Shown: positions 9,201 through 58,693 of the stretch, piece after piece
Position numbering within the stretch: the first letter of the stretch is position 1
How the letters are laid out: every line of letters begins with the position of its first letter
Source of the DNA: Tribonema minus
Taxonomy: Eukaryota; Sar; Xanthophyceae; Tribonematales; Tribonemataceae
DNA length: 64,000 nucleotides
Direction: 5' to 3'
NCBI GenBank assembly: GCA_017506865.1
Contig: JAFCMP010000022.1
Coordinates: 186,001 to 250,000 of the forward strand
Program-made: the position numbers and the translations under genes
The notes under the pieces: model-generated
The model's input: only the letters and a program-made list of their open reading frames with translations
Database searches by the model: none
Told to the model about the DNA's origin: nothing

Positions 9201-12200
9201 AGGTGACGACGGGCTCGCTGAATGCCAGGGTGACGCCGCTGCCGTCGCCGGACATCTGCGCCGTGAAGCGGACGGGCACGCGCGTGGGCGCCGCCGTCGG
9301 CACCGCCGCTGTGGCGTGGCGGCGAGCGGTGAAAGCAGTGCGGGCAGTAGGGGGTGGGCGTCGGGCGATGTTGATGGGCATAAAGATTGTCAACGCTGCA
9401 GTCACAGCAACTTGAATTGTCCTTCACACAGAGGCGCTGGAAAGCATTGAAGTGGTGAAAGAGCTACCGCACTGTCACAGGAGGCAAAGACTGGTGCAAA
9501 GAGCAGGAAGAGCGCTTTGTCACTTAGCCAAGCATCAAGCGACGGGCTTGCAATCGCTCAGTCTGCTTACATCACTGAATCAGCGCCAAATCCACGCCAG
9601 CTGCCATGGAGTCAGCAGCACCGTTATCAAGGGTACAAGCGCACTGCTGCAGCACATACGCACGCTCTGCACTCACTTGGCGTGCTGGTTGGCGTCGCTG
9701 TCGGGACGGCGGTGGGCACTGCTGTCGGGACCGCTGTAGGGGTTGCGGTGGGGGTCGCAGTGGGTTTTGCTGTGGGGACGGCTGTGGGAACGGCAGTGGG
9801 GGTGGCTGTGGGAACCGCAGTAGGGGTCGCAGTGGGCGTTGCAGTAGGTGTTGCCGTAGGGACCGCGGTGGGGGTTGCCGTCGGGGTTGAGGTGGGCGTT
9901 GCAGTAGGCTTCGCCGTAGGGACGGCGGTGGGAGTGGCTGTGGGGACAGCTGTAGGCTTTGCCGTGGGCGTCGCTGTGAATGCGAGGTGACGGCAGTGCG
10001 TGCAGCAGGGATCAGCATGGAGGATCAGTGAGCGCAGGGGCGTCGTCATTGACTGATGTGAATGGCAGTGCTCATGCGCATCAGTGCTCGCAAAGACCTG
10101 AGCCCAAGGGGGTGGACCGGGTGCCATTCCTCGTGCTGTCTGCAATCAGACACGCAGAGACTGCGAGAATGGGGCAGCAGCCACCGCACTGTGCTTGAGC
10201 TGGTCCTCAGTAGTGCTGAAGTCACTCAATGCGCTTCAGATGATGATGATTGGTATGCCGCAGATCGTGATCATCAACCATGTGAAAAGTAAACGCCAGC
10301 AGCCGCTGCGGCACTACAGTAGATGTGAAAAGTAAACGCCAGCAGCCGCTGCGGCACTACAGTAGCTGCGCCGTCAGTTTTGACTGCTGAGTTGTCTCCT
10401 CGGCAGCAGAGGACCTACAAGCATGACACTCGGCAAACGCCTGAAATTGTAGACAGTGTCGCCTACCTGTCGGCACGGCTGTAGGCGTGCTGGTGGGCGT
10501 AGCCGTGGGAGTCGCCGTCGGGACCGCGGTTGGCATGGCTGTGTGCAGCGCATGGAAAACAGCGGCAGGCACCATGAGCATTACAGTACATACGCGCTGA
10601 TGGCATCAGCGATGCTCTGATGTCCCTCCATTGCAGCGTGGTTGAGACCTGACGTATGAGATAGGGTTAGGCTAGGGTTAGGGCTAGCGGCACCACTTCC
10701 ACTTGATGAGTATGGAGCAAGTGCTGCATATGCAAGCCAAGGCTGCTCCGCCGCTGCCAGCAGCATGCACTCTGCTGTTGATCAGCGACAAACCTCAAAA
10801 AGCTTGAGCATACTTAGATGTATATGCAGCTGCCGACGGATACATACAGCAGCATTTGCTGCACGGGCAGAGAACGTCATGCCAGCAGCTGCTCAATAAG
10901 GCCTGATGCTGTGTTGATGACAGTAACCGGTGACCCTGCAGTGGTGAGCGCACCACCCCAACTCAAACCCTTGCCTTCGCCCTAGCACTTTTGTTGATTC
11001 TAATGCCAACACAGTGTACCAGAACATCGAGCTTCTGCAACGGCAAGTAAGGCAACGAGGGTAAATTGCTTTCATACCCACACCAGCACAGCCAACTTGG
11101 AGGCATGAGGGCATGCAGGCACCTACTGACCCGAAGGAACACTGTCACGGTTTCACTGCTTGTGTTAGGGTTTGCCAGACCTAGCATCCCGCCGGTGCTC
11201 ACAAGGGTGCTCACATGCAGCACCATGGCTTACAGCCCTGCTACTGCTTCGTTACAGTCGACAACACGCGGTCTGTACAGTGATAGCACGCCCTGAAAGC
11301 ACGCACCCGTCGGCGTGGCAGTCGGCGTGGCGGTTGGCGTGGCTGTGGGGACGGCAGTTGGCACGGCCGTTGGCACCGCGGTGGGGGTCGCTGCGCGTTG
11401 TGAGGGGGGGATCGCGGGTAAAAACAGGAAGGCCAGTCCGAATCAGACAAGTGCATTCAGACGACGGGCAAGCAGGCAAGATCTCCACGCGCAGTTCACA
11501 GCCCGGCACCGCTGCCGCAAGCGCTCCTCGTGCACTGCACAGGCATGGGGCAATGGATCCAGTGCCGGTGACATTGACGACATAAATGCGCATGTTACGC
11601 TGTGTGAACGGACATTACCACCCTTCAGCTTGAGAAAAGGCTCGGATGCTGTTGAGAACTGCAATGGGCCGGCAAGCAATCCCAAATCAGTGCACGAGCA
11701 GACTTATCTGCTGTACTGCTCGTGAAGTTTACACCGAAATGTAGACATGTTCTGAGCAGAACTGAGCTGCACACCGAGAAACATACATTATCCGAGCAAG
11801 TGACAACGAACCGCGGCACCCCACGGTTTCACAGCACACAAACACCCGCTTGCCTGTAGGCGTCGCCGTCGGCACGGCAGTTGGTTTGGCAGTGGGCGTG
11901 GCCGTCGGAGTTGAAGTTGGCACCGCAGTCGGCACTGCCGTCGGAGTTGAAGTTGGCACCGCAGTCGGCACTGCCGTGGGCTTGGCAGTGGGCGTCGCTG
12001 CGGTGCGTGCAAATGACGTGCACAAGAATTAGGGTAAGGGTTAGGCTCAAACTCAGGGGGTGAATGGTGCAGATCTGAATGTGCTGTGCGTGTGCGGCGA
12101 AACCCGCGCACTAACGGTGTGTAGCGTCGCTACTGAACCTGCGTGGCTGCATCGGTTGAACAAAGCAATCCACATTGCTACACATGCATAGCGGCGGCAG

Positions 12201-15200
12201 TGCAGCGTGCCATGATGATTCAAAATCATGAACAGGCATGAAAAGGAGGCCAGACACCGCGAGCGACACTAAAAGATGGTCACCGAGGCCGGCTGCATCG
12301 CGGAGGCTGCCTCAAGCCTCACTTCCCAGTGCAATGCTGACATTTGAACTCATATTGTGCATCAGCGCTCAGCACACCACGGACACATCTCACTGCTGAG
12401 CATAGGTAGGTATCACTCGCTTTTCTTCAAGTTCACAGATGCGTTGTGAGCACGCAGTTGTACTAGCACAAGATCTGCGTACCTCGCATATACTCCACAT
12501 GGTTTCCGCCGCTAGTATAGAACTGAACATAAAGTACTGGAAACTGCGCAAGCAATGCAATGCAATCACAGCGCTGAAACGCTGTGCGTCGCCGCTGCTG
12601 CTGGCCCCGGCTTGCACAGGCCGGACAGGAACGGTCCAATGCGCTGGAGCTGCTTTTCCAGCCCGAACATAAAGTACGTCTCAATGTTTGCGTTGAGTCT
12701 CTCTTCGGAGAAGGAGTGTTGCATTGAGTGCACATCCAAAGAGAGGGCTCTTCGCGCCCCTAGCGAAGCGAAATGAATCAAAGTACTCTCACCTGTCGGC
12801 ACCGCGGTCGGCGTGGCGGTGCTCAGCACAGCGCAAGTACATCTCACCGCTGAGTGTTGGTAGGTTTCTCTGGCTTTTTGTCCAGTTCACAGATGCGCTG
12901 TGAGCACACGCATTGCACGAGCATGAGAGCTGCATACCTCACATACTCCGCAGGGGTTCCGCCGTTAAGCCGGAACCCGAACATGAAGTACTGGAACTTG
13001 TGCAAGCAGTTCAATCACACCGCTGAAACGCCGTGCGTCGCCGCTGCTGCTGGGCCTGACTTGCACAAGTCGGACAGGGACGCTTTCATGCGCCGCAGCT
13101 GCTCACCCAGCCCGCCATGATGCCACATCTCACTGTTTGCGTTGAGTCTCTCCTCGGAGAAGGAGTGTTGCTTTGAGTGCACATCCAAAGAGAGGGTTTT
13201 TCGCGCCGCTAGCGAAGCGAAATGAATAAAAGCGCGTACCACCTGTCGGCACCGCGGTCGGCGTGGCGGCGCTCAGCACAGCGCAAGTACATCTCACCGC
13301 TGAGCGTAGGTAAGTTTCTCTCGCTTGTTGTCCATTATACTGATGCTCTGCGAGCACATGCATTGCACGAGCATGAGGGCTGCGTACCTCACATACTCCA
13401 CGGGGTTTCCGCCCTACAACGGAATCCCGAACACGAAGTACGTCTCACCTGTCGGCACCGCGGTCGGCGTGGCGGTGGGCACCGGCGTGGGCGCGTACGT
13501 GCTCGGGAACCACCGCACCTTGGCCTCGCCCGTCGACAGCGTCACCGCGTCCGTGTAGCCGTCGTTGTTCATGTCGGCGAGTTCAAGCAGGCGCGCGCCC
13601 GTCAGGCTCGCGGAGAGCGTCCACTTGTTCCACGTGCGCGCCGAGTTGACGACGATCGCCTCGTAGAAGTACAGCGACGCCTCCGCGGTGCTGATGATGA
13701 AGATGTCGTCCTCGCCGTTGTTGTCGAAGTCGCCCACCGCGCTGTCCTGGGGGGGGGGGGGGGGGGCAGGGGGGGGGGGGGGGGGGGGGGGGAGGGGGAG
13801 GGCGAAACAACGCGGCGCGTGATGAGGTGAATGAGCGGATGTGGAAGGCAGGAGCATATACCGGCTGCTGAGCAGTGGCAGAAGACACCAATTGCTGCAA
13901 CTGCTTCAGAGGCCGAACAGGGGGAGCTGACTGCCGATCTGGAAGCTATGAGGGGTTTTAGAGAATCAAAAGCACTTTGCAACAAGTTGGCGCTATGCAG
14001 GCAACTGTGCAGAATTGTGAGAGCGGTTGTGAGAGGTTCTGAAGCAAGACGCAGCTGCGAGCAATCCGGGAAGTGCAGAGTTGGGGCCATTCGTTTTCAG
14101 AGTCTTCTTCTCTGGTCTCAGTCACAAGTGTCAATCCCAGCGGTAGCATGATCTGAAGCATGGCAATGTCTATCAAAGGTGTAGTTCAAAACACCCCCAC
14201 CTGAAGTACTTCAAAGATACCATCGACTGCAGTGACAGAGCAAAGTCGCAATCCCAAACGACTGACATTGGCCCCAAGCAATATTGCAGCTTCATCGACC
14301 GTGTTTGTGTTGGTGCAAAAATTGAGCTGGACTTTATCGTTGACGGCATGCTTGGCTGCGCATATGTACAGGCTTTGGTTTCACAGATACTGCGCGACCG
14401 GACAGAACTCTGATGCAGTGCTTGCTGACGCAAGTTGAAATGGTGCACGCACAGAGTGCGCTGCGCTACTCGTTCAACACCGCAAACGTTCAGATGGTGC
14501 GCTGCCATATTGAATTCATGCGTCCAGTGCCAGCTAACCAACCTCTGTAAGTCAAGATAACGCTCGCATGACACTGGCACACTGCATGAACGCGCTCCAC
14601 AGCAAGGGCACACGCGCTAGCATGCGGGAGCGGGGGGGGGGAGGTGGGGGGTAGGGAATTGCTCAGCTCCACGCCCATACCACATGCCCCTGCAGCAGAT
14701 ACACATGTTTCGTTGTCATCAGCACGAGCGGTAAGGCCATGAGCATTGTGCACAAACCATTTACAGAGCCCTAACCCTAACCCTACATCTGCGCGCGGCC
14801 CTCACCTGCGCCTGCGTCAGCGCGTTGTCGTGCGTGTTGGTCGCGAACGTGTAGCCGCCGCAGCAGTTGGCGGCGTACGTGTAGTAGCGCGAGCGCGGCG
14901 CGGCGCACGCCGCGTCGCGCGTGTTGAGGATCTCGAGCTCCGGGAACAGGCCGAGGTTGCGCGCGACGATGGACGTGACGTACGGCTGCCCCGTCGCGAC
15001 GTCGCGCTGCGTGAAGCTGCCCGTGCCGCCGTTGTTCTGGTACAGGCGGATCGTGCCGCCCACCGCGCCGCCCTCGGCGACGACGAGGTCGATGCGCCCG
15101 CTGAGGAAGTAGTCCACCGCGAGGATGAGCGTGGGGTGGATGTTTGCATCAATTGTATATGCGCTGAATGAGCCTCCGCTGTTCTGGTAGCAGACCATGA

Positions 15201-22278: not shown

Positions 22279-25200
22279 CTACAGGCCTTCCTCGTCGTCG
22301 CTGGACGCGTCGCTGAACGCGCGCCGATTCACGACGACGCTGCTGCCGCTGCTGCTGCTGCTCGCGGCGCTGCTGGAGCTGTACGTGCGCTCCGCGCGGC
22401 GCGCGCCGCCGCCGCCGCCGGCGCTCAGCAGGCTGCTGCCGCCACTCGCGCCGCGCGCCGCCAGCGTCCCGCCGCCGCTGCTGCTGGAGCTGCTGCCGCT
22501 CTCCGTGGACGCGCTGTGCGCGACCGTCGCCGCCCCTGCCGCCGCCGCCACCGTCGCCGCCGGCGCCGCCACCGGCGCCTCGCTGGCGTCGCCGAAGAGG
22601 CCGGCCGAGGGCTTGGCCCAGAGCTCCGGCGACAGCGGCGGGAATGTGTTCATGGGCGTGGACGGCAGCTCCTGCAGCGCGGGGACGTTGGCGTTGGTGC
22701 ACTTGAGCAGCGAGCGCGCCTCGCGGCGCGAGCGCAGGTAGCCGTAGAGCACCATGCGCGGCGGCCCCGACACCATGACCCACAGGAACGCCGTCCACAG
22801 CAGCGAGAAGTAGAGGAGGTTCGTGTTGTACGCGGTCGTCCAGAAGATGTCGAAGAGGCCGTAGTGCGCGAGCATCTCGAGGACGCCCTTGGTCATGGCG
22901 CAGCCGCTGAAGAGGTAGACGCAGAGGTGCGGCGCGGCGTGGAAGAGGTTCGCGCGCAGGTCGAACGACACGTCCTTCGCCGTCACCGCGAAGCCCATCT
23001 CCATGCCGCAGAAGCCGATGAGGATCGAACGGATGAGCGTCATGAAGACGGTGAAGTTGTCCTGCAGCGCGCGCAGGTAGTCGCGCCAGCTCAGGCGCCA
23101 CGCCGCCAGGTACTGCATGACCATCATGAGACCGACCGCCGTGCCGCCAATCGCGAGGTACTGCTCGAAGGACGTCGGCCCGAACGAGATGGGCGCGCCC
23201 GCGAGGATCGTGCTGTACATGATGATGCCCATGAGCACGACGGGGATGATGTAGACGATGCCGACGGTCGAGAAGAAGTACAGCCAGCGCGCCGTGAGCG
23301 GCAGGCCGCGCGTGAAGAGCGGGTTGCTCGCGCGCACGATCTGGATCGCGCCGACCGCCCAGCGCATGCGCTGCACCTGCGCGCGCGGCGGAGGCAGCGG
23401 CGAGCAGCGTGTGAGTCACTGGACGCAGAGGCCCTGATTGAAGTACAACAACGGCGTTCAGCGTTGCACCAGCAGCAGTGCGTGCGGCAAAGGCAGCGGC
23501 GAGCGGCGAGGCAGCGCGTGTGAGTCACTGAACGCTGATGCTCTGATTAAAGTTCAACAGCGGCGCTCTGCACAGCGTTGCACAAGCAGCAGCGCATGCA
23601 GCGGAGAGTAGCGTGTGGTGCGTGTGAGTCACTGAACGCTGAGGCTCTGACTGAAGTGCAACAACGGCGCGCTCAGCTCAGCGTTGTACCGGCAGCAGCG
23701 CATGCGCTGCACCTGCGCGCACGCGCGGGGGAGGCAGCGACAGCAGCGGCGAGCGGCGTGGCAGTGCGTGTCAGGCACGCGAGCATTAGTGAAAGTTTGA
23801 CAGTGCACGCGTAGCAGCGACTGGCGAGCGGCGTGGCGGTGCGTGTGAGTCACTGAACGCTGAGGCTGTAATTGAAGCACAACAGTTGCGCGCTCAGCGC
23901 AGCGTTGCACCAGCAGCAGCGCGGGTGGTGCGGCGAGCTGATTGGCGAAGTTGGCAGTGCATGAGCGGACAACAGCGAGCAACGTGGCAGTGTGTGTGAG
24001 TCACGTGCGCATTGGGGCCCTGTTTGAAGTGTGACACCCCACGCTGTTGATCCGCAATCATCAGGGGATGGGGGTTGGAGTGAGTGTTGAGGTTGAGGGA
24101 TTGAATTCCATGCAGCAGTGCTACCTCAGCGCGTGCGGCGCTCGGCGCTACTTCACGCACGCAGCGCTTTACAGCAGAGACACACCGATGACGGAACAGC
24201 ACACAGCCATGAGCGCGATGAGCTCATCGGGCGGGACGCCGCGCGTCGTGCCACACATCGCACTTCAAGTTCAGTTTCAAGCACATCACTGGACGGTGGT
24301 GACTCACCATGAACGCGTAGAGCTCCTTGGGCGACACGCCGTGCGTCATGTCACATATCGCACTTCAAGTGCAACTTCAACCGCATTACTGGGCGGCAAT
24401 GACTCGCCATGAACGCGTTGAGCACCTTGAGCGACGCGCCGCGCGTCATGCGAGTTCAAATACTTCAACAACTTGAACTGCTTCAACTTGCGGTACAGTT
24501 CACGGCGGTGACTCACCATGAACGCATCGAGCTCCTTGAGTGACACGCCACGCGTCATGCGCTGCAAGAAGTACTTGCAGCGGACGCCGTGCGCGCACAG
24601 GTTGAGAGACGTCTTGAAGTCCTCCGTGATGGAGTACTTCAACCAAAAGTACTTCAAGTTGAATAACTTCAACTTGAAGTGCAGTTGCGGCGGCAGCGAC
24701 TCACCATGAACGCGTTGAGCTCCTTGGGCGACACGCCGCGCGTCATGCGCTGCAGGAAGTACTTGCATCGGAAGCCGTGCGCGCACAGGTTGAGCGACGT
24801 CTTGAAGTCCTCCGTGATGCTGCCCGTGGAGAAGCCGCCGACGCTCTCCAGCGCGTGGCGGTTAAAGGTGACGCCCGTGCCACAGCACGGCGTGCACCCC
24901 GCGCCGTCCCAGCCCGACATGAGGCACTCGTAGAAGAAGGCGTAGGACTGGCCGAGCAGGTCGTTGGTGTCGAGGTTGTAGAACGCCTGCGCGGCGGTTA
25001 CGGGCGGGCGAAACGGCAAAGCGTCGGTTACATGTGGCGCTTTTTCACAGGTGTACATGCGCGTGTGACACACTGACGTTACATGGCAAGCAGCAGCACT
25101 GCATGCGGACATACGGCCGTTGCGCTCGGCGCATCAAGCTGAACGCTGATGATGGCATTGCAGTTACACGGGTTACGGATGTGTGGCAAGATTGTGGGTC

Positions 25201-28200
25201 ACGCTGTTGTTGCGGCGCTGTGCGCGCGTGCGGTAGCTGCACAAGGGGTTGTAGGTGAAGGTGTTACCGTCATCATTGTTGAAGTACGTGATTGCAGTTG
25301 ACTTCAGCAGGCTGCCTGAGCGCTGCCTACGTGATTACAGGAGGCAACATGTGTTTCACACATGTTGACGTGCAGTAACCAGTGACGCAGTGAGCACCAG
25401 CAACTGGCTCTCAGAATGATCTGCTGTGTGACGTTCTGCATTGATATTGTAGCGGTACGCCAATTTTCAAAGTGTGCGGACAAGTTGCAACGGCGACCAC
25501 AAACGTGGGGTCATTAGAAGAACACAGTACGCCTTGATGTATGCTGAAGCAGCACGCATTTTGTAATTAAACTTCATGAGTCAGGCAGCAGTGACAGCGG
25601 CATCAGAAGCCGGAACTAGCCCAGACGCTCCAGAAACCACTGCATTCGATGAGCACCTGATGATTCTGACTGTGTGTGAGCACTGTCAATAGTTGATGCG
25701 CACACGACAGCCATTATCAGGAGCAGCTACTTTTAAAAGAGTGGCAGCGACCTATAAATTAATAGCAGCACCACCCTCTCGCATGAAACATGAATCAAGT
25801 TGCATGGTTTAGACCTGTATGATGCACCTGAAATTCATCAAAATGCTGAAGCGTTCATGAATTTTGGTGCAGAATTCAATGGTGACACTGCCAGGACTTG
25901 TTGAAGTTTGTGTTAGTCGCTAAGCTGCAGATAAGCTCAGAAGAGTGGCTACTGATTGCGCTTCTTGATGCAAGGCCAGCCAAAATGTCACAAGCCCAAC
26001 TTTAAAAAATAACTCTATGATATAAAAAGAACTCTATGATATTGCAGAATACATGATGGCATTTCAGAGGTGCCGGCGATGCCGTGGCCAAACCTGGACG
26101 GTGTTGTACTGAAAGCAGTGTATGCGTAGGCACCTACTGAAAAAGCTGTCAAGGAACCAAAACTGCAACTCAAAACTGGCTTCACACCGCCACTACACTG
26201 CCACCAACGCGCACACACAAGTGCGGAGCAATGGGGCACGCTCGCGCACAGAACACGCCCGCCCGCAATTGCGCTGACGTGCACGCAGCCTGTGGCACTA
26301 CACACAAAAGCACGTGCATGTCTATACATGCATATCCATTCGATTTTGTATATGTAATTGCAACACCAAACGCACCTGCGGCGTCTGCAGCAGCCCCGTC
26401 GTGTTGTCAAACTGCCCCTTGAGCTTCCCGCCCTCCACATCGCCGCCGCCGCCGCCGCCGCCCGCCCGCTCCGGCCGCGTGAAGAAGAACGGCGCGACCG
26501 TGCGCGCCATGCACGGCTCCGGCAGCATGTCGCAGTCCAGCACGATGATGAGCTGGCCGCACGAGCCCTCGCCGAGGATGCAGTTGTTGAGGTTGCCGGC
26601 CTTGGCGTGGTGGGGGACGCCGGGGAGCTTGACGCGCGCGACGTAGCGCGTCGCGACGCGCCCCGTGTACGCCGCCGCGGTGAGCTCTACCATGCGCTTC
26701 ATGTCGTCCGACTTGCCGTCGTCGCACACCCAGCACGTGAGCTTGTGCGCGGGGTAGTCCATGTCGTAGCACGCGCGCAGCGTCATCTCGACGATCTCCG
26801 TCGGCTCGCTGTAGCACGGGATCATGATGTCGACGGTCGGGAGGTCGTCGTCCGTGAGGCCGAGCTCCGCCTGCGTCACGCGCTTGCGGAACTTGAGCGA
26901 CCACATCCAGACCCAGTGCGTCATGCCGAAGAGGAAGCAGATCGCCTCGGAGACGATGAAGACCCACGCGCACGCGTCCGCCCACCAGATGCCGCTGCGC
27001 GGGTAGTTGTACATGCGCCAGTAGATGAAGTAGAAGATGAGCGCGCCGAGCGGGAACATGAGCACGCGCATGACGTACGTGTACCACGGCGTCACGAAGT
27101 CCGCGTCCTCGCGCGACCCCCACCCCGCCGCCTCCTGCGCCGCGGCGTCCTCCACCGGCAGCTGCACCGCCATCGCGGACTGCGCCTGGCGCAGCTGCAT
27201 GCTCACCATGCGCGACGGCGCGCGCACGAGGCGCCGCGGCGACTCAAAGTCGACGTCCCTGAAGCCCGCCGCGTCCGCGTCCGCGCCCGCGCCGAGCTCC
27301 AGAGAGTGCAGGCTCGAGCCGCGCGCGCGCGCCGCGCCGCCGCCGAGCGCCGCGGGGTCGTGGTCGCGCTCCCCGTCGCTGCTGCCCTGACTTGAAGTTG
27401 GGGACAGAGGGCAGTCCTCGTCGATGATCCAGTTCCTGAAGCCCTTGCCGCTGTTCTGCTCATGCATCATGTCCTGGAGGCACGAGCGCAGGCCCTCGTG
27501 GACGGAGGCGGGCCCCCCCCTCGCCTTGTTGCGCGCCTGCCGCAGGCTGAGCCACTCCGCCACCTTCTCCACGGACATGTTGGAGTTGGTGAGGAACCCC
27601 TCCAGGCTCTTGCGCAGCCCCCTGTGGTCGTCGGGCTCGAGGCCCATGGCCCACTCGTCGAAGACGCCCTGCGGGGAGGGTCCACTGTCCCCTTGCCGGA
27701 CCTTGGCGCTGTCCATATCCCGGGTGAGGCTCTCCCTGAGCTGGGCATGCTTGTCCTGAGAGAGCCTCGAGAACGGCACCCTGACGGCGATGGGGGAGTT
27801 CAGGAAGTGCTGCATGCCTCCGTGCGGCGTGTGGGAGGCCTGGTACCAGCCCTCGACTTCGTTGTGCAGTGCGGATTTTGTTTGGCCCTTGCCGGTGGAG
27901 CCGCTGCTGGGCAGCCCTCCTTCCGCCATCCAGCTGCTATATTCACCCCTGCTGCGGTCTCTGCTGCCTGCTGCTGCCTGCCCAGAGCGCTGGAGCTCCT
28001 CTATGGCCGCTGCCGCCGCCGCTGAGCGCAGGTCAGAGCTACCTTGGCGTATGTTTGACGGTGCTCTGCTTCGCCGTGAGCCATGTGCAGGGGCCACTAC
28101 TGCCTCGCCTGAGCTGCCTCGGCTGTACAGACCATTGAAGCTCTGCTGTCTCACGTCGCCGTCGCCGCTGCTAGAGCCATGCGACGCGGACACGCTAGAA

Positions 28201-28280
28201 CTCGCTGTGCGCGCCCGACGATTCTGAGCAGACGCATTACTACTGCTGCTCCCTGCCCTGTCTCTAATGGCAGCAGACAT
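22279..28280 (-). CDS. Cellulose-synthase-like family 2 glycosyltransferase
   Basis: Exons 28280-26376, 24986-24705 and 23376-22279 are all phase 0 and give 1094 aa. Residues 1-390 are a Ser/Arg-rich cytosolic leader. Two membrane spans follow (VLMFPLGALIFYFIYW and an ADACAWVFIVSEAICFLFG segment). The GT2 core carries the processive-synthase signature: CDDGKSDD (first Asp), VLDCDMLPEP (DxD), FYNLDTNDLLGQ, CCGTGVTFNRHALESVGGF, the catalytic ITEDFKT (TED), and VQRMRWAVG (QxxRW) across the last junction. Several C-terminal spans complete the channel, and an acidic, serine-rich tail ends DASSDDEEGL. It is expected at the plasma membrane using UDP-glucose to extrude a beta-1,4-glucan. A related beta-glucan or other UDP-sugar substrate cannot be excluded. 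Confidence 0.85.
23377..24020 (-). repeat. Tandem copies of the QxxRW-exon head in the same intron
   Basis: A GTGTGAGTCACTG-led unit recurs at about 23409, 23518, 23622, 23843 and 23993. At least one copy (23697-23750) repeats the start of the exon with its acceptor, CATGCGCTGCACCTGCGCGC. Partial copies lie near 23480, 23590 and 23910. Together with the tail copies this fills most of the 1.3-kb intron. Confidence 0.8.
24208..24704 (-). repeat. Four decoy copies of the TED-exon tail in the adjoining intron
   Basis: The last 40-125 nt of exon 24986-24705, with its donor, recur at about 24511-24637, 24401-24453, 24301-24352 and 24208-24252. The second and third are exactly 100 bp apart. Each repeats the antisense of RMTRGVSxKELxAFM plus GTGAG(T/C). 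Copies lie between ACTTCAAGT elements (24262, 24362, 24652). Confidence 0.85.
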
Positions 28281-28806
28281 GCCAGCAGCGGCAACGTCCC
28301 TGCTTGCCAGAGGCGAGGGGGTACTCTCAGGCCTCTCTCAGCCTGGTTTCCACTCGAAGCAGCAGGTGCCTCCCTACAGACTCTACACCCGCCGAATAAT
28401 TGGGTTCTTCGTTATCCAAAACAGATCGACTTTTCTTTATTTTGAACGGCCGAGTAGTACGGATGTGAGGGTCCTCATGTATGCACATAAAACACAGGTG
28501 CAACATCTGGGCTAACATGTGTCTGCGGCAGCACCTGTAGGAAATGCAGCGGCGCAGGCAACACCTGGTCCAGCAGCACGTAGCAGGGGCACGTTTGCTG
28601 TGACGATGTCAGGTCAATACATGCAGGTGCGTCGTGTAGTCGCTGAATTCAACCGTCAATGGTGAAGACAGAATTCGCACCAGCAACAGTTGGCGCGCGC
28701 TAAGATCAATCACCCAAGCTGTCACCCCGCACATACTCATCTACACACAAATAGCCCGTGTTGTCCGGAAGGCCTGTCAGTCCTTTGGGCAGTGATGGCA
28801 GGGGTG
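27957..28806 (-). repeat. Segmental duplication, copy 1 (5' end of the glycosyltransferase gene)
   Basis: About 840 bp covering the first ~110 codons and the upstream promoter region. It is nearly identical to 31739-32585: only a few substitutions and 1-2-nt indels are visible (for example AATAATTGGG versus AATAATGGG). This marks a recent duplication in direct orientation, 3.78 kb apart. Confidence 0.9.
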
Positions 28807-29099
28807 GGTGTGAACTCCTATGATGAGACGACGGCCTCCCCCCTCCCCCCGTACCGTTCGCATAAGCGTGAGGCGGGCGTATGATTGGAGCTCCTAGGTG
28901 TTCATCGCTATGTTTCGCTGCTGCATGTGCCGCTGGTGACGGCTTGTGACACTGTAAGAAACGGTGCTGAAATAGCCATCCCCAGCGGCATGCGGACGTT
29001 TTTGCTTGACAGTTGCATTTTGCTGCTTGTGTGCAGGACGCATGTGCCCTAAGGCAAGAACTGATTTCTGAAGAGTACCTTCCCAGATAATGGTGCAAC

Positions 29100-31434: not shown

Positions 31435-32061
31435 TCAAGGTGTGACGTGCGCGCTTGTCTGAACCGCGGTAGATGCAGCGCGCTCTACGCCCCAGACAGC
31501 GCGCGGGGGAAGAAAGACACCACTGCAAGTCGCTTGGCCTTCAGGCTGGCTGCGTACTGGCCACGCATCAGCATGCTTCTCGTGGGATATGCGTGCGAGG
31601 TGTCGTGCAGAAACACTTGCGGCGCATGTCAAATGGCCACTAACAACGCGCCGCAGCGCCGTCGAATGTCTCCCTGCCTCCCCGCAACGAACGACGCGGA
31701 AGTCGTTGCGACGAAGGCAGGACCTCGGCGGTGCGCTGCGGTCTCTGCCTACTGCTGCCTGCCCAAAGCGCTGGAGCTCCGCTATGGCCGCTGCTGCCGC
31801 CGCTGAGCGCAGGTCAGAGCTACCTTGGCGTATGTTTGACGGTGCTCTGCTTCGCCGTGAGCCATGTGCAGGGGCCACTACTGCCTCGCCTGAGCTGCCT
31901 CGGCTGTACAGACCATTGAAGCTCTGCTGTCTCACGTCGCCGTCGCCGCTGCTAGAGCCATGCGACGCGGACACGCTAGAACTCGCTGTGCGCGCCCGAC
32001 GATTCTGAGCAGACGCATTACTACTGCTGCTCCCTGCCCTGTCTCTAATGGCAGCAGACAT
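31435..32061 (-). pseudogene. Chimeric ORF: copied glycosyltransferase N-terminus plus unrelated tail
   Basis: The duplicated 5' end keeps its start codon at 32061 and stays open for 208 codons. The first ~110 residues match the Ser/Arg-rich leader of the 22279-28280 gene; the last ~95 come from unrelated sequence (ending STAVQTSAHVTP). All catalytic parts are absent. It could be a dead truncated copy or a young gene driven by a copied promoter. Only transcript data would tell. Confidence 0.6.
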
Positions 32062-32585
32062 GCCAGCAGCGGCAACGTCCCTGCTTGCCAGAGGCGAGGG
32101 GGTACTCTCAGGCCTCTCTCAGCCTGGTTTCCACTCGAAGCAGCAGGTGCCTCCCTACAGACTCTACACCCGCCGAATAATGGGTTCTTCGTTATCCAAA
32201 ACAGATCGACTTTTCTTTATTTTGAACGGCCGAGTAGTACGGATGTGAGGGTCCTCATGTATGCACATAAAACACAGGTGCAACATCTGGGCTAACATGT
32301 GTCTGCGGCAGCACCTGTAGGAAATGCAGCGGCGCAGGCAACACCTGGTCCAGCAGCACGTAGCAGGGGCACGTTTGCTGTGACGATGTCAGGTCAATAC
32401 ATGCAGGTGCGTCGTGTAGTCGCTGAATTCAACCGTCAATTGTGAAGACAGAATCCGCACCAGCAACAGTTGGCGCGCGCTAAGATCAATCACCCAAGCT
32501 GTCACCCCGCACATACTCATCTACACACAAATAGCCCGTGTTGTCCGGAAGGCCTCAGTCCTTTGGGCAGTGATGGCAGGGGTGG
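31739..32585 (-). repeat. Segmental duplication, copy 2
   Basis: Second copy of the 27957-28806 segment. Similarity ends abruptly at the CAGGGGTGGG near 32585 on one side and inside codon ~110 of the copied gene on the other. Confidence 0.9.
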
Positions 32586-32725
32586 GCCCCCAGCGTACGG
32601 GTCTGAGTGAGAGCGAGTGTACTTTTATTAATTCCACTTGTGGCTGTGTACATGGTCACACCCAACCTCAAGTGTTGACTCCCCCACACCAGACCGCCTG
32701 CTATATAACATAGGCAGCTAGCTGC

Positions 32726-39247: not shown

Positions 39248-42200
39248 CTACCGCACAATAACCGCGACGCTGGCAAACCTCAAGACCCGGCTGAGCCACT
39301 GCAAACTTCCACTTTGAAGTACCTCCTCAGCGCCGTCCTCGTCGCCCTCGGCGATGGACCCGCCGCCGACCCCCGCGCTCACCCCCCATCCACCCCCCCA
39401 ACGCGCCTTATCGGCGCCGTTCGTCGGCGCAGCGGCGCTGCCGGCAGCAGTGCCGACCGTCGCGATGGGCGCGGCAGCAGCGGCAGCGGCGGCGCCGTTG
39501 CTCAGCGGTGGCGAGGATGCGGCGCGCGGCGGCGGCGGCGACAGCGCCGGGATGGCGTAGGCGGAGCGCAGGTGCGCCGGCGGCGGCGGCGGCGACAGCG
39601 GCGACGCCGCCGCGAGCGACGAGGACGAGCCGGCGTCCATGCCGAGCATCGCTGCCATCTGCACGTCGAACAGAGGGTGCGCGTAGCGTGGGAACAGAGG
39701 GGATCAGGGAGGGGTTGAGTCACAGAGTCACAAGGTGTTACAAGGTGTATTGCATTTGACGATTGGAGCGCGCAGTACACGCGCGGCGCGCTGCGGCGGT
39801 GGCGGCAGCGGCGGAACCGCTGCTGCTGACGTGAGTGACGTGGCAGGCGCGGCGAGGGCCGCAACCCTAATCCCAACTCTACGCGACGCAGCGCCATACG
39901 TGGGTTTTGCTTGAGCATCGCTGTTGTTTGCGGCAGAAGACCGCACAGGCATCGTACATCGCCACAAAAACACCGTGCCACCACCAGCGTGTTATGCGCG
40001 CAGTGACATCATGACTGCTGACACGCCCCCTCCTTTCTTAACGCGCGCTGCAACGCATGCGCAACGTCACTTCGTCGCGCCTCTCGTCACCTTGTTCTGG
40101 GATCGGCGCCGCATCTTAGGGTTAGGGTTAGGGTTAGCATCGCTATCGCTGACTGTCCTTCCTAACGCGCGCGCTGAGCAGCATGCGCAAAGGCAGCTGA
40201 CGGCAACCCCTTCCCGACACGCATGCACACTGGAAGCGTATGCAACAGCGACAGCTGACGGCCTGTGGTCACTGCAAAGCGTACGCAACGGCGACAGCTG
40301 ACGCCCTGCGGTCACCTTGTTCTGAGAGCGGCGCCGCGCCGCCGTGAGCGGGTCCGAGCTGCCGGTGGCGAGCAGCGCCTCGCGGCACGCGCGCGACACG
40401 CCCTTGTCCGCGTCCTTGGCGCACGCCGCGAACGCTGCCGACGCGAGCTCGTGCAGCTTGGCGTCGCGCTCAATCCTGGCAGCAAGACCGGAAGAGGAAC
40501 GATCCAGGAAAATGCGGTGATGGGCACGCGCGGCGTCGACGAGAGACATGCAAGAAGCGCCTGTGACATGTATTTCCGGTCCGCATGAAAGAAGCGCATG
40601 CGAACATTGGTGCGGGCGAGGCGAGCGGCGTGCGGTGTTGTGGAATGAGCGCTCCGTGAGGGCGCTGCCGCTGCCGTCGCCGGATAAAGACATAAGACAC
40701 ATGCAGCGCAGCCTGCGCTGAGCAGCAGCAGCAGCGGCGGGCCAAGGCACTGGCGCAGTAGGCCCAGTAGCGCGCGCTCGGCACTCGCGGACTGTTTAGC
40801 AGTGACACGGCAGGCGCGCTTGGCGAGTCGCGGCATGCAAAACGCGCGCGCCGCTGTGGCCGCGCTGTCGCTCAGGAACACAACGATTTCACCATCACCG
40901 CTGGCAGCGTACGTGCCGTGCTGGCCCATGCTGATCCTCACCAGCACCGCTGAGCCGTGCGTACGCATGCGCGCACGTGTGCAGCAATCGCGACCGCCAA
41001 ATTTATTTTCAGTACTTTTCTCACCTGTGCGCCAGCACATACGTGGCGGCCAGCTGGATGAATGCCTGGCGCGCGGCGGCGTGCGTAGTGACCGGCGCCG
41101 CCCCTGCTGCGCACGCTGTGCTGGGCTCTGCCGCGGCGCTTTCTTCGCCCTCGCCCTGCAGCAGCGTGCCATGCGCAGCGCGCAGACAGCCAACAGGGGG
41201 TGTGTCAGCACGGGGGACGACATGATGCAACGATAAGTGGACGCTGCGCACGTCTTGCTGTAGGGTAAGGGGCTAGGGATAACCTACCGTAACCCTAGGG
41301 TTAGGGGCTGGGTAGCCTAACCCTAACCCTAGGGTTAGGGGCTGGGTAGCCTAACCCTAACCCTAGGGTTAGGGGCTGGGGGTAGCCTAACCCTAACCCT
41401 AGCAAAACGCCCGGCGGCAATGTGTCGGTGCAGGCTTTGCAGTCGTCAGCCCAACGAAGTGCTGGTTGCCGAACGACCTCTTGCTGCCATGCAGGCTCCA
41501 TCTTCGCTTGCGTGTGCCTTCCGCCTACTTGCATCGCAGGCCCACTCACCCAGTCCTCAAAGAGCGGGCCGCTGATCATGCGCATGCGGTCCGAGGTCGG
41601 CGTCGCCGCCGCCGTCGCGGCCGCGCGCGCCGGCCCATGCACCAGCGGCGGCAGCAGCGGCGGCGCGCCCGCATCCGCGCCGCCGCCGCGGTTGCTCAGC
41701 GCGCCGGTGCCGGCGGCGCGCGCCAGCACGGCGAGGCCGTCGCACAGCGCCGCCTCCAGCGCGCGCCGGTCCGCGGCGCGCAGCAGCACGTCGTGCGCCG
41801 CCACCACCGCCGCGAGCGCCGCCGCGCCCGCCGCCGCCGTCGCCGCGTCGACCGCGGCGCCATGGCCGCGGTTCTCCGCGACGGCGCCCGCGGCGACCGC
41901 CGCCGCCGCCGCCGCTGCCGCCGCGGCGTCCACCGCGGCGGGGCGCGGCGGCAGCGGCGGCGGCGCGCCGCCGCCGCCGCGGCGCTCCGGCGACGCCTCC
42001 GCAGAGGGCGCGTCGGGCGGGTGGAAGTGCTCGCCGACGGGAATGGTGTGGCCGGCGAGGAGCGCTGCCTCGTTGACGAGAGCGCGCGTGGCAAAGGTCG
42101 TGAGGTGCAGCGGCGCGGGTCCGGAGAAGCCGGCGTGCGCCATGGCGGCGGCGGCGGTGTACGCCGCCTCGCGCAGCCCGGCCTGCGGGCACGCAAGGGG

Positions 42201-45200
42201 GGAGGGGCGGAGGTGTGGGGGGGGGGCGGTGTCGACACGGGGCATTGATGCGCAAGGGTGTGCAACATTGGGGGACCCAGGTGGCTTGCCGTAGCTGCCT
42301 GGTGCTGGGGCTGCTGCCAGTGCCAGTCCGGCAAGCTCACTGAGGATGAGAACATATGTGCGTTTCGAAAGGAGGTCTGATTCGTGTGTGCGTGCGTAGT
42401 CTTGTAGCCCGGCACACGTACCCTAGCCCTAGCCCTAGCCCTGACCTAGCGTTGCGGTGTGGTTTGCTGAAGCGCTGGCCAGGCAGCGGGCACTGTCATC
42501 ATCAGCGGCGCAACATGCTGGCGCACATTGCGATCGGGCTTTCAAGGGCTGCGGCAGCCATTTACTGCAACAGCGGACTCGCACCAGCCATAGCCCTAAC
42601 CCTGATTGTAGCCCTACACCAACTTCTAACCCCCCCGCCCCCGCCAGCCTCACCTTCACGGGCAGCGTCATCATGTACTGCACCGCGCACTCGCACGTGC
42701 GCAGCTGCCCTTGACCTTAGCCTTGACCCTAATCTCAGCCCCAACCCCGCACCAACTCGCCCCCAACCCTACACCACCAACTCCTACTCCCCTCCCCCTA
42801 AACCCCCTATCAGCCTCACCTTCACGGGCAGCGTCATCATGTACTGCACCGCGCACTCGCACGTGCGCAGCTGCAGGTGCGCGGGCGTCGGCAGCCCCGG
42901 CGTCCCCACCAGCGACTGCAGCAGCACCACCGACGCGCGCTGCAGCCGCGGCAGCACCGTCGCCATGGCCAGCGGCGACAGCGCGCCGGGCGCGACGCGC
43001 ACCAGTGCCTGCATGGGGGGGGTGGGGGTCAGTGCTCAACACCAATGCATTGTAGCACTATTATGCTGCAAAAGTTGTGACCCGCAGCCTCCACATGTGC
43101 TGTCACGCAACGACTCATTGCTCAACACCGATGCATTGCAGCAATGAAGTGGCACCAGCTACCTGAGCACACGCTGTCACACAATGACTCATCGCGAACA
43201 CGGCCTTGTGCAGCGCGCATGGGGGGCCGAGGGGGGGAGGGGGGAGGGTGAGCACTAAAATATCTGCCAACGCTGAAGCATTGTAGCAGGCAATGCCGCT
43301 GTTTTGGCGTGAGCATGGTGTCGCACGCTGCCTCACGCTGCCTCGTCGCAATCCTCAAAGCTCAGAGACCTCGCAATGGTGTTTATGCTAATGAGGGTTG
43401 TACAGAACTGTATACTTGAAGTCCATGTGCATGCTTAGAGCTTCACGAAGTGACATAGAAGCATGCTTCAAACTACAGAGAGTGGGGTCACATGTTTCCA
43501 ATGCGTATATCATGGATATGTGTTTGACATTGACATGCGGCGGCGTACCGTTACGTGTTGCTCGCGTGTACATGCAAACGCCTCAGCTTGTGTATACTCT
43601 GACGTATGCTTTCAGGTACTGTACAATTCCGAAGAACATGTCCTTTTTCGCATAGGGTGTACAAAGCTTCAAATGATGCACATTTGTTTGAATAGCTGCC
43701 GATGCTTTCAAAGTACCACTCCGAAATGCAGATGCTTCAGATGACACATACTTCACATGATACAAACTTACTTGGGCACCTGCGACGGCAGCGACGCATA
43801 CCGTGACATGGTGATCGCGTGCACATGCAAACGTCTCAGCGTGTCTGTACTCTAACGCATGCCTTCAAGTACACTTTTGAAGCGCATGCCCTTCAAATTA
43901 TACGCATTCAACTGGCACCTGCGGCGGCGGCGACGCGTCGCCGTCGACGGGCCGGCACAGCTCCTGACACACACTTCAAATGACACAAACTTCAAAGTGA
44001 CACATACTTCAACTGATACACATGTATTGTAATGCGTACCAACGGCGGCGGCGACGCGTCAACATCGACGGGCCGGCAAAGCTCCTCCGCGCACATCCCC
44101 ACATACATGTACTTCCAATTATACATACTTCGAAGTACTTCAAGTATAGGTATTCAATTGGCACCTGCGGCGGCGGCGACGCGTCGCCATCGACGGGCCG
44201 GCACAGCTCCTGCGCGCGCATGCCGGCGCGCAGCGTGCGCTCGAGCAGCGCGAGCACCACCACGTTGTACACGCGCGCCGTGCGCACCCACTCCGCCGCC
44301 TCTGCCGACGCCGCCGCGGCCGACTCCTTGGCCTTGGCGGCAGCCTCCGCGGCGCGGCCCGTGTGCATGGCGCCTGCGCACGCGTGCATGCAATTGCAGA
44401 GGGGCAGTCGTCAGTGGCGCAGGCAGCGGCCATGAGCTCTGACCTAACCCTAACCCTAATCAGAAGTGCCAACGCCCTCACCCTAGTCTAACGCTAGACC
44501 TAGGGTTTGGCGGCGGCCTCTGCGGAGTGCCCCTTGTGGCATTGCGCCTGTTCATGCATGCGATCACAGAGGTAGTCACAGAGGTAACTTGTCAGTGGCG
44601 CAGGCAGCGGCGTTGAACGCTGCTGATCAGGAGTGCCAATGCCCTGACCGTAGGCTAACTCTAGACCTAGGAGTTGGCGGCAGCCTCCGCCGCGCGGCCG
44701 CGCCATACCCGCCCCCCCCCCCACCTACCCCCCCAACCCCCTGCGTCATCGGGCGACTAGCTGTGCCATGTACCCACCTGCGAGCTCCGCCGACGTCGCA
44801 GCGGCCTTCTTGGCCGCCTCCTCGCGCGCCTGCGCAATGCGCCCACCTGCCGCCAGCAGCTTGACCAGCACCAGCACCAGCGCCGGCAGGCGCCGCGCGA
44901 GCGCGTGCGCAAACTTGTCTGCCGTCGCCGTGTCCTCCTACGGCGTGCACGGCGCGGCGGCGTGCAACGGTGTCAGACACGTAGCAGCAGCAGAGGCAGC
45001 AGCAGCGGCGGCAGCAGCGGCAGCAGCGGCGGCAGCAGCAGCAGCGGCGGCAGCTGCTGCTGCAGCGGCAGCAGCAGCGGCAGCAGCAGCAGCAGCAGCA
45101 GCAGCACAGCTGCCGCGAATTCAACTGCGCTGCTCAGCGCTGCCTGGCCTAGCTCTGGCCCTAACCGTAACCCTAATTCTGCAGTGCGGCGCCGCAGCAC

Positions 45201-48200
45201 GCATACGCATCAGAAGCGCTCTTGGTAACCCGTATCATTGTGCTGTCAACACAAGCATGGTAGGAGTTCTGGCTCTGTAAATGAATGCAACCGTGGCAAT
45301 CTGCCATCGCCATCACCGCATCGGTTCGTGCGCGGCTCACCTTTGCAAGTGGCGGCAAAAGCGCTTCCGTCACCATGTCAAGCGCTGCGGCCGCGTTTTT
45401 ACATCATGATAATTCCAAATTTGCGGCTCTAGGAACAGTGGCTGCTGTTAACCAAAGCAATGATGTCAAGCTGCCATCGCCGCCGACACATCGTGCGTGG
45501 CTCACCTTTGCAAGGGGCGGCAGGAGCGCGTCCGTCACAGTGTCAAGCGCTGCCGCCGCAGTGCCCATGTCCACGCCGTCGTCAGGCCACGCCTGCGCAG
45601 CCGCAGACACGGGAGGCGCGTCACCGATGTCAGTTGCAGTTGAAGTTGTGGCCAGCTCTGGTGGCGGCCGCAGCAATGCATACGCTGTCGACTGCAGTGT
45701 AACCGGCAGACATGTGATGCCGTTGAAGTGCGCGACTGCAACTTGAACTGCGACGAGAAAAAGAAGGTCCCTGCGCTGGCTTAGGGTTAGGGCTAGCGAC
45801 CGCAGCTGTGCGATATGGTTGCCCCCAATGCTCAGCGGTTTGCAGCAACATGGCGCCACGCTGCCACCGCTGCACCCTCATGTGCTTGCGAGGTCGAGAA
45901 TGCTGCTGCTGCAAGTCCACAGTGCCTGCGTGCGTGGGCCGCATGGTCCCGCGGCGCGGCCTACTGCGACCATGCGACCACACCCTTATATCAGTCCGTG
46001 TGACCCCAACAAAAGCGTTCGATCGACCGTCAGAGCCACCGACAGCTGTGCGCCGCGACAGCACGGGCGCGTACGCCCAGAACCACACAGCTCAAAGCGG
46101 CGCCGCGCCGCGCTGCGCACAAAAGAGTTGCATCCCGGCGCCCAGCCGCCCGCTGCGCGCAAGCAGCTGCTGCACAAGACCGCATGCGAGGGCGCGCCAC
46201 TCGCCTGCTGCATGAGCGTGTGCGCCTCAAGCGCGACGCGCGCACCGGCGCGCAGCGCACCCGCCAGCGATGACGATGCTGCCGCCTGGAATTACCCAAC
46301 ACCACTTGAACTACTACAGAGGGTGCTTTCAGCGCAGCGCCACTTGCCTGCTGCATGAGCGCGTGCGCCTCGAGCGCGACGCGCGCCGCCGCGTGCGCCC
46401 ACGCGTCCGCGTCCTTGGTGCACTGCGGCAGCGCGGCGAGCACGGCCGCCGCCGTCGAGCGCACCGCCGCGCCGGGGCCCGCCAGCGCCGGGCTCACCGC
46501 GCGCCGCACCGGCTCCACGTGGTCCCTAAAGCGCGTCTGCAACGGGGGGGGGGGGGGGAAGGGGGGGCGGTCCAGCGTCAGTAGGAGGGTGGAGAGGGGG
46601 GGGGGTGTCATGGCTCACCGCGCGCCGCACCGGCTCCACGTGGTCCCTGAAGCGCGTCTGCGGGGGGCTCGAGGAGGGGTGTTTGGAGGGGGGTGTTTGC
46701 GTCAGAAGGAAAGGGAGGGGAGGGGGGGGGGGGGGGGGGGGGAGTCGCCAGCAACTTCAACTTCAAGAGTGCACGCGCGTGCGGCCCTTACTGCTCTGCA
46801 ACTGCAGTAGCGGCGTCCCACGCTGACCAAAAACGCACTCGTGCATTCTGTACACCATTCACTGTGCCTGAGTATGTATGCGCGGACAGCGAAAGCGATC
46901 TGCGCCGAGACTTCGAGCGCCACCGCCTGAGCACTGACGCACCAGCGGCCGTTGCACGCATGCGCACCACCGCGCCGACACACACGTTGCACTTCTGCAG
47001 CTCAGATTTAGGGTAGAAGCGGAGGGTTAGGGTTAGGGTTAGGGTTAGCCACTCCACTCCCGGACTGCTCGTGTATGCCTTCAGCGAGCACAAGCTGCCA
47101 TTTCCGCGGTAAAGCACAGGTCAGCGAAAACCCGCTGCGGCGCAACAGCCTGCGCCACGTGTCGCGGAGCCCCCCCCGCCCTCCCCCCCCACATTGCTGG
47201 CGGCAGCACTCACCAGCCCCCTATGCCTACAGCCCCCCTATACCTACATTACTGCAGGACCCCCCCCCGCCCCCCCTCTTTGTGTATAGCAGCGCTCAGC
47301 AGCCCCCCCTGTACGTGCATACATACCTGCAGGAAGCGCGCCATCTGCGCCAGCGCGTCGAGCGCGTCCACCTGCAGCACGCGCGCCTGCGCCGCCGCCG
47401 CCGCGCCCGCTGCCGGCGGCGCGACGCACGCCGTGATGGCCGGCACGAGGCGCGGCATGTAGCCGCGCAGCGCGGAGCGCCGCAACTTGAGCGACTTCTT
47501 GTCCGCTCTGTCAATCTGGGGGGCCAGGGGGGGGGGGGGGGGAAGGGCTGTGGGTGGAAAATTGGTGCGGAGCCGCGCTTCCTATGCCAAGGGTTAGGAT
47601 AAGGTTGGGGTTATGCAAAGACTGTGACTGGCGTCACATTGATGCGTGGTGCCGAAACAAGGGCAAAGCCGCAGCGCCATGGAGAACAGTACACCCGCTG
47701 CACAACTGCCCTGTCCAAGTACTGCGGTGAACTCCGATAGTGCTCTACAAAACACACTCCAGAGTGCTGACGTAATTAGACATCCTGTACCTGTGTTGGC
47801 GGGGATGGGGGCGTACATCATCTGCTGCTACTGACGCAAACCAACGAGGACGTTCTTTAAAACTTCAACTTGCATCAGATCAGTGGTTGACAACTTCAAT
47901 TTTCCCATACATGTCTGTCTGCCTCTGACTGTCCTCGTAAGGGCAAACCTGCGTTGCTGAGCAGCATTATTGTACCTGCAGCAGCCATTGAACTTCAACA
48001 GTCACCCACTGCAGTGATCCTCAGTACAGAGCTCGACTGACAGGCTTGACACACCGCAACACCCATCTTATCCATACATCAGGTATGTGCTGCTGACTCC
48101 AAATGAAGGGTGGCCAGGAATGGTTTGGAAATTGTCGTTGTCTACTGTGTGTTGCAAAGAGCACGTGCCACTTCAATCACATCACGATGATGATGAAGTT

Positions 48201-57700: not shown

Positions 57701-58693
57701 CCGCATCAACGCCTCAGCATGGAGCTGCAGCGGCGCCGAGCGCGCGTTCCCGCAGGTCCTCTCACCCCACTGTCTAGTTACCTGCGCTTTGCTGAATGCC
57801 ATCGGTAACATGCTCGTGCAACTGTGTGCTGGGAGATGGCGTCCATGTCGAGGCGTCCCCTGGCTGCTCCGCATGGACAGGGCCCGACCACCCCGCCTGT
57901 TCCTTCAGGTCGGGGTTCGCATGTTTGCTGCGGCAAGGTGGTGTCCGCCTGCCCTTGCGCCCAGCGAGTGCGGTTGGCTCTCTCGTTCACAGCACGTCGC
58001 TGAAGCGGGCTCCGATTATCAGCATCTTCACACAACCTGGCAGCCGCCTGTCGCCGCGCTGCACCAGGCAGCATGTGCTAGGATCTTCACCGCCGCAAGC
58101 CGGTACGCTGCGGCAGCAACGGGCAGCAACCTGCTAGGATCATCACCGCCGCACACCGTACGCTGCGCCAACAACAGGCAGCAACTTGCTGGGATCTTCA
58201 CCCCCGCACGCCTTACGCCGCTGCGGCAGCGCGTTGCCTCACGCGCTGCGCGCCCTCACCTGCCTGCCCGCCCACCCTGCGCCGCGGCAGCCGCTGCGCA
58301 CGCTCATGGTGGGCACGGGCTCCGATCACCATGATCTTCACGCGCCCGTGTACGCTACAGTCGCCTGTCGTCGCGCCGCAACCGGCAGCAACCTGCCAGG
58401 ACCTGTACCGCCGCACGCCGTACGCTACACACCGCGGCGCCTCACGCACTGCGCCCTGCCTGCCCGCCTTCCCCGCGCCGCCGCAGCCGCTGCGCACGCT
58501 CATGGTCGGCATGGGCTCGCACATGGAGTACACCGCCACCAACGCGGAGCTGGCACGGCTCAGAGAGACGGACGGCCTTGATGTGCAGCTCGCGCGCGAT
58601 GGCCTGCGCGTGGAGATCGAGCTGGAAGAGGAGGACGGTGCCGCTGCTGCTGCCGCCGCCGCCGCTGCTGCCGCCGCTGTGCAGTCAAAGTAG
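51760..58693 (+). CDS. Metallo-beta-lactamase-fold hydrolase
   Basis: Nine exons: 51760-51946, 52211-52286, 52848-53043, 54225-54311, 55437-55503, 55817-55896, 56514-56597, 57272-57502 and 58487-58693 (404 aa, all phases consistent). The N-terminal RVSRWLWRLPAGAGVALTAA resembles a mitochondrial presequence. Family landmarks in order: ALIFIGSGSSSG, CVSACDAARLPPETNPNYRN-NPSVLIRH, IDTGKTFREGVLRWYP, the metal motif HDHADAILGLDDVRG (HxHxD), VLVDSRTM, PFTVAGLTM, PIPVVHGEDYMSNGFIFG, VYISDCSRVPP, DALLKDRAHPTHFSMAQSVE and PLRTLMVGMGSH. These match the eukaryotic hydrolase group whose members carry GLDDLR after the metal motif. The substrate is unknown. An Ala-rich tail ends the protein. Exon 1 uses a GC donor (GCAAGA). 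Exon 3's acceptor is the least certain. Confidence 0.8.
54069..54166 (+). repeat. Decoy copy of an exon head (exon 54225-54311)
   Basis: A ~100-bp unit ending in GCCTTGCACTGCAG plus ATGGACACGAGGAAAACG repeats the acceptor and start of exon 54225-54311 (GCCTTGCACTGCAG, ATCGACACGGGGAAAACA). The copy has an internal deletion after the first codons. Confidence 0.85.
55902..55923 (+). repeat. Degenerate telomere-type run in intron
   Basis: CTAACCCTGACCCCTAACCTAACC starts at the donor of exon 55817-55896. A (GGTA)n run follows at 55934-55952. A similar TTAGGG-type run lies at 56608-56629, directly after the donor of exon 56514-56597. Confidence 0.65.
57213..57271 (+). other. Oligo-C polypyrimidine tract at a splice acceptor
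   Basis: Long C runs lead directly into the CAG acceptor of exon 57272-57502. Another C run (57521-57538) lies just beyond that exon's donor. Confidence 0.7.
58000..58325 (+). repeat. Tandem repeats and decoy head of the terminal exon
   Basis: A 55-60-bp unit (GGCAGCAACxTGCTxGGATC then TTCACCGCCGCA) repeats about four times over 58025-58220. At 58233-58325 a copy of the acceptor and first ~35 nt of the last exon (PLRTLMVG) appears ~205 bp ahead of the true one at 58487. Confidence 0.8.

Follow-up and report, generated by a model that had tools for sequence, protein, structure and literature searches.

The window analysed here, a 64,000-nucleotide stretch of the Tribonema minus genome (contig C22:186001-250000; the genome comprises 158 Mb in 554 contigs), carries on its minus strand a gene for a GT2/cellulose-synthase-like glycosyltransferase (PF13632, E 3.5e-20; PF03552, E 2.1e-17; PF13641 also matches). 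The first exon of the gene model (26376..28280) was called by a gene finder, with homology also supporting its glycosyltransferase domain part. The upstream (TED) exon (24705..24986) is defined by Pfam, paralog homology and the gene model, and the downstream (QxxRW) exon (22279..23376) by homology to three paralogs and by PF13632, PF13641 and PF03552. Between these two exons lies the focal intron of 1328 bp (23377..24704), which runs from the donor ATG/GTGAGT at 24704 to the acceptor GCGCAG/GTGCAG at 23377. Its position is common to this gene, paralog A, and to paralogs B and C on contig C14 and D on contig C18, a comparison made within one genome. Since the focal exon boundaries were set from the three paralogs, they are independent of the repeats described below. 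Two further observations concern this gene. A direct duplication of 858 bp (27951-28808 and 31735-32586; 98.6% identity, 3.8 kb apart) includes the 5' terminus of the GT2 model, and the 8-mer TTGAAGTT/AACTTCAA, which is about 22-fold above Markov expectation in the 264-kb sample introduced below, is found close to the beginning of the intron at the focal position in three of the four paralogs.

The original prediction held that the focal intron contains at least four copies of the upstream exon tail with its donor, arranged outward from the true splice site in steps of about 100 bp. We found four such copies, at depths of 188, 297, 397 and 497 bp within the intron, so that an initial offset of 188 bp is followed by steps of 109, 100 and 100 bp. 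The copy nearest the true donor (24469..24631, on the minus strand like all copies in this intron; 86.7% identical to 24655-24819) contains 115 nt of exon tail, the donor and 50 nt of intron, and reads GTGAGT at 24516. The second (24392..24452; 90.2% to 24689-24749) contains 45 nt of exon tail and a donor that is now GCGAGT at 24407, while the third (24301..24350; 96.0% to 24698-24747) has 43 nt and GTGAGT at 24307, and the fourth (24207..24251; 84.4% to 24704-24748) has 44 nt and GCTGTG at the donor position, 24207. GT is therefore kept by two of the four decoy donors, and the other two read GC. On the acceptor side, several copies of the exon head with acceptor had been proposed. Repeat analysis revealed a degenerate tandem array with a period of about 104-110 bp (23373..24013, minus strand), but the exon head is clear in one copy only (23696..23748; 17 nt of exon head, the AG and 33 nt of intron end, 87% identical to 23360-23409), and the remaining units mostly repeat the 3' end of the intron. 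The description of this intron was thus partly confirmed; the statement that it consists largely of decoy splice sites was too strong, as repeats occupy 1,113 of 1,328 bp and copies of its own edges 372 bp. With TRF periods of 104 and 100 and head-to-tail units of similar length, the focal intron also has the structure of an intronic minisatellite or tandem array. The first decoy aligns to its own exon with a score of 118 and to the exons of paralogs B and D with a score of 116, and a decoy in paralog D scores 85 against paralog C and 75 against D itself. Because decoys score about as high or higher against paralog exons, the edge copies may be older than the split of the GT2 paralogs.

Recurrence was evaluated in a 264-kb sample, in which the window was combined with the 170 kb that follow it on the contig and with three 10-kb segments containing the paralogs. 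Genes were modelled with a purpose-written small HMM gene finder trained on the same 264 kb; it recovers the hand-set paralog exons except for longer first exons and extra small exons, which serves as a consistency check only, as those exons are also in the training set. Removal of exons shorter than 60 nt and of introns outside 120-3000 bp reduced 136 predicted introns to 69. At an alignment score of at least 30, the donor edge matched its own intron in 25 of 69 cases versus 2 of 414 comparisons with length-matched introns of other genes. For acceptor edges the corresponding counts were 16 of 69 versus 14 of 414, and at a score of at least 50 they were 8 of 69 versus 1 of 414. The excess of own-edge similarity over shuffled pairs, suggested as a check on the original prediction, is therefore present in these 69 introns. 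Using blastn, donor-straddling copies were found in 21 introns, acceptor-straddling copies in 10, either kind in 26 and a duplicate pair of any kind in 38; of the total intron length, 9% lies in edge copies and 25% in duplicates of whatever kind. Similar structures do recur in other genes, as had been claimed. In the window, with ab initio models, we observed donor-edge copies at 42645..42708 (100% over 64 nt to 42811-42874), 40048..40112 (77.6% to 40272-40337) and 45270..45394 (77.8% to 45439-45559), an acceptor-edge copy at 46612..46731 (79.7% to 46491-46605) and a donor-edge copy predicted as an exon by the gene finder at 46194..46269 (84.2% to 46337-46411), all on the minus strand, as well as an acceptor-edge copy on the plus strand at 58006..58109 (73.2% to 58316-58426). 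Since the copies are known from a single assembly, collapsed or expanded reads could in principle have produced them. We consider such an artefact very improbable, as 42 of the 46 straddling pairs are 70-92% identical (the other four are fresher, at 93.5-100%) and occur in many genes on three contigs, and as a genome-wide search with two loci, which can miss repeats, returned no second near-identical copy.

Other repeats were also noted. A tandem repeat with a 449-bp period occupies 12365-13441 of the window (about 2.3 copies, 82%), and predicted proteins from 884-9381, at the left end of the window, have near-identical counterparts some 150 kb distant (joined coordinates 151428-162366), which suggests a segmental duplication. 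The genome contains at least 92 chlorophyll-binding (PF00504) matches, as befits an alga.

As the gene models are ab initio, edge copies were recounted for seven genes supported by paralogs or PDB matches (GT2 A-D, SOD, Twinkle and TTC8/BBS8); 21 of their introns were drawn up and 20 passed the filters. Nine had a donor copy, six an acceptor copy and ten either kind. In the same count none of the six introns of paralogs B and C had an edge copy; by blastn, paralog C does have one copy limited to exon tail. One of the ten positives, the Twinkle intron at joined coordinates 70440-71150, starts at a predicted exon that copies the tail of the preceding exon; the true intron is therefore longer, and the donor copy is still present. 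A Pfam scan of eight predicted proteins gave matches for SOD, Twinkle and TTC8/BBS8 and none for the other five, among them the two scanned proteins of window genes showing recurrence. The best PDB alignments omit decoy peptides called as exons in SOD, in TTC8/BBS8 and once in Twinkle, while a second Twinkle decoy peptide is aligned to a chain segment that is already covered. Copying of a whole exon with both splice sites, as in mutually exclusive or tandem-duplicated exons, was not seen here: the focal donor copies carry one edge, and the best alignments of these three genes omit or double the decoy peptides.

The shape of the copies points to tandem duplication. The nearest copy lies 88-241 bp from the edge in 27 of 31 cases. 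When the nearest donor copy was taken from each of 21 introns, five proved to be contiguous units, and in eight of the 16 that are not contiguous the spacer is more similar to the stretch behind the copy than in all 23-25 null comparisons. Tandem geometry is thus seen in 13 of 21, and the spacer-homology test detected no tandem remnant in eight. Among clean cases, the freshest comes from paralog D, where a 105-bp unit gives an alignment of 108 bp with 93.5% identity. Donor copies are 87-89% identical in the exon part and 77-79% identical in the intron part beyond +6, a contrast that is expected if selection holds the exon: drift would then affect the decoy alone in the exon part but both copies in the intron part. 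Acceptor copies show less of a contrast, with 88-91% in the exon and 73-89% in the intron apart from the invariant AG.

The copies might instead have been retained as decoy splice sites or alternative edges with a regulatory function. GT is present in 25 of 31 decoy donors and AG in all 12 scorable decoy acceptors (of 14), counts that include several decoys from one intron and are hence not independent; 20 of 31 decoy donors exceed the tenth percentile of true donors, and at 42183-42819 the 55 exon nucleotides of an edge copy are unchanged while the adjoining intron copy has drifted. However, GT retention is close to that predicted from flank identity (0.88 squared, approximately 0.77), the decoy donors are weaker on average than true donors (6.2 versus 9.1 bits), and the distances between donors show no clear reading-frame bias (12, 13 and 6 with remainders of 0, 1 and 2 modulo 3). 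Regulatory retention is therefore quite improbable in our judgement.

The original interpretation invoked a mechanism centred on exon boundaries, and a process started at splice sites by R-loops, paused polymerase or nicks would fit several of our counts. By aligned length, 46 of 104 duplicate pairs straddle an edge versus 18 expected under random placement, a comparison made before correction for unit length; aligned length underestimates the duplicated unit, because the intron parts decay. Donor-straddling copies occur in 21 of 69 introns versus stop-straddling copies in 2 of 22 genes (one-sided Fisher p = 0.036), and donor pairs outnumber acceptor pairs (23 versus 10, p = 0.035). The exon parts are also short, with only 1 of 31 edges above 75 nt versus 14 expected under random placement. 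This shortness is partly an artefact, since the gene finder called longer decoys exons: five further decoys, judged to have been missed in this way, have exon parts of 64, 74, 100, 87 and 77 nt, and their inclusion gives 4 of 36 above 75 nt by hand count. A ceiling on the exon sequence in copies, which we had considered, is weakened accordingly. Among pairs separated by at most 300 bp, 23 straddle a donor, 10 an acceptor and 44 lie inside introns. A model based on unit lengths with uniform placement predicts 11.8, 11.8 and 53.3, and the same model with twofold persistence of exon-anchored copies predicts 18, 18 and 41; the twofold weight is an assumption suggested by the donor-copy identities. 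If this weight is right, random short tandem duplication combined with tolerance at the edges is enough to account for the straddling totals. The exon parts of the nearest donor copies also vary from 14 to 115 nt, and 44 of the 77 pairs lie within introns to within 9 nt, both of which speak against targeting. A boundary-targeted process is thus unlikely in our view. One reading of the acceptor deficit is that decoy acceptors, which lie upstream of the true site and are made first, would disturb splicing more. Insertion of dispersed copies is disfavoured, since exon-only copies are few (7 pairs versus 46 straddling).

The original interpretation was therefore supported in part. Tandem duplication across exon edges, repeated in other genes, does add decoy splice sites, whereas the observed totals do not favour centring on boundaries over weighted random placement. 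As for the idea that duplication lengthens introns, each copy adds bases, but the median lengths of introns with and without edge copies (684 bp and 550 bp) do not differ significantly (p = 0.093). The mechanism may still be active, although 42 of the 46 straddling pairs are diverged (70-92% identity) and four are fresher.

Taken together, these data are best explained by recurrent short tandem duplication that is permitted wherever the true splice site is left intact and is followed by neutral decay, a reading to which we assign a probability of roughly 0.68. Short tandem duplications, with units mostly of 88-241 bp, would be frequent in this genome, with slippage and the fill-in of staggered breaks as candidate DNA events. 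If such a unit includes an exon-intron boundary, splicing would continue at the copy adjacent to the exon and the inner one would become intron, leaving the protein unchanged and the intron longer by one unit. The exon-proximal site would presumably be the one used in RNA, and harmful duplications would probably be purged by selection. The inner copies, each a decoy exon tail with donor or an acceptor with decoy exon head, would then decay neutrally, and repeated or array-type duplication could build ladders such as that at 23377-24704. This model is favoured by the own-edge excess, the tandem geometry, the donor decay pattern, the fit of weighted placement, the lack of a clear frame bias, the PDB alignments, the edge-straddling copies in 26 of 69 introns and the ten positives among 20 supported introns. 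Against it stand the short exon portions, the eight of 21 donor copies without a tandem remnant, the weaker acceptor contrast, the unchanged 55 exon nucleotides and the absence of a significant length difference.

The distribution of duplicates among sequence classes also bears on recurrent, tolerated duplication. The density of duplicate pairs is 1.13 per kb in introns and 0.45 per kb in sequence lying clear of predicted genes, which may itself contain unpredicted genes. Copies across stop codons are, as given above, rarer than copies across donors, and none was found across a start codon in 12 genes. The intron enrichment and the scarcity at stop codons count against the model, as no preference for introns is expected of a uniform process. 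For predicted exons with a minimum length of 200 nt the figure is 20 pairs in 41,272 bp, or 0.48 per kb, which is not below the intergenic density, although repetitive protein segments may be the source of these pairs. The removal from exons that the model assumes is thus not visible, and our confidence was reduced to the value given above. The telomere hexamer TTAGGG/CCCTAA has a density of 2.31 per kb in introns, where it is found in 31 of 69, compared with 0.39 in intergenic DNA and 0.04 in exons; its longest run is 30 bp. It is present in 18 of 26 introns with edge copies versus 13 of 43 without (p = 0.0025, uncorrected for length), and shows no enrichment around copy ends, with 0.188 inside a distance of 20 bp versus 0.176 at random. 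Both tandem duplications and interstitial telomere repeats can arise through break repair. Together, the intron enrichment and the hexamers hint at a possible intron-linked repair process. In a more speculative extension, introns would be hot spots of transcription- or splicing-linked break repair that leaves tandem duplications and captured telomere repeats. The rule that the edge must survive would then act as a one-way ratchet, introns growing outward from their own splice sites, and decoys would be ignored by position, the site nearest the exon being used, rather than by sequence. We regard this as doubtful, with perhaps one chance in five or slightly better.

Duplication has been described as a source of introns, and the relevant reports (PMC4974935, PMC2891723, PMC2809761 and the review PMC3488318), as represented by the excerpts available, concern new introns or new positions. 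Rogers-type intron gain resembles our observations in that exon sequence with a splice signal is tandemly duplicated and the extra copy becomes intron. However, that process makes a new intron, whereas here an existing intron shared at the same position by paralogs A, B, C and D (one genome) gains copies and decoys. In the potato RdRp case (PMC4974935) the duplicated unit likewise includes intron-exon structure, but a single event created a new intron and exon, while here there are many events, each involving one edge. The Drosophila study of new intron positions arising by sliding or tandem duplication (PMC2891723) also involves small tandem duplications near splice sites, and it cites 1901 mostly tandem duplications with a median of 367 nt in wild flies; its available part is about new positions and does not describe edge-copy arrays inside introns. 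Direct repeats overlapping the splice sites of new introns (PMC2809761) are similarly splice-site repeats attributed to break repair, but they are at least 8 bp long and flank new introns, whereas ours form interior ladders. Intron gain through introner elements or AGGT-type duplication would link duplication and introns, which do occur together here. Introners, however, form near-identical families at unrelated loci, and in the 264-kb sample only 35 of 2,346 intron pairs had any similarity; 23 of 25 among the matches listed (of 35) were shorter than 75 bp. The position of the focal intron is also shared with three paralogs. This explanation is accordingly as remote as an assembly artefact. 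Among the matches listed in literature on duplication, repeats, introners, intron length and telomere repeats in algal introns, a search of incomplete coverage, no title described edge-copy ladders inside existing introns, which is weak evidence that such ladders are new.

These results suggest a simple way for introns to acquire sequence, with edge copies present in 26 of 69 sampled and 10 of 20 homology-supported introns. They also carry a warning, as a gene finder can call decoys exons. The decoys are look-alike sites that face the splicing machinery, and true and decoy splice sites form natural pairs whose local sequences are similar. Combined with RNA data, such pairs could serve as a direct test of how the spliceosome chooses among near-identical sites, whether by which is transcribed first, by exon length or by distance.
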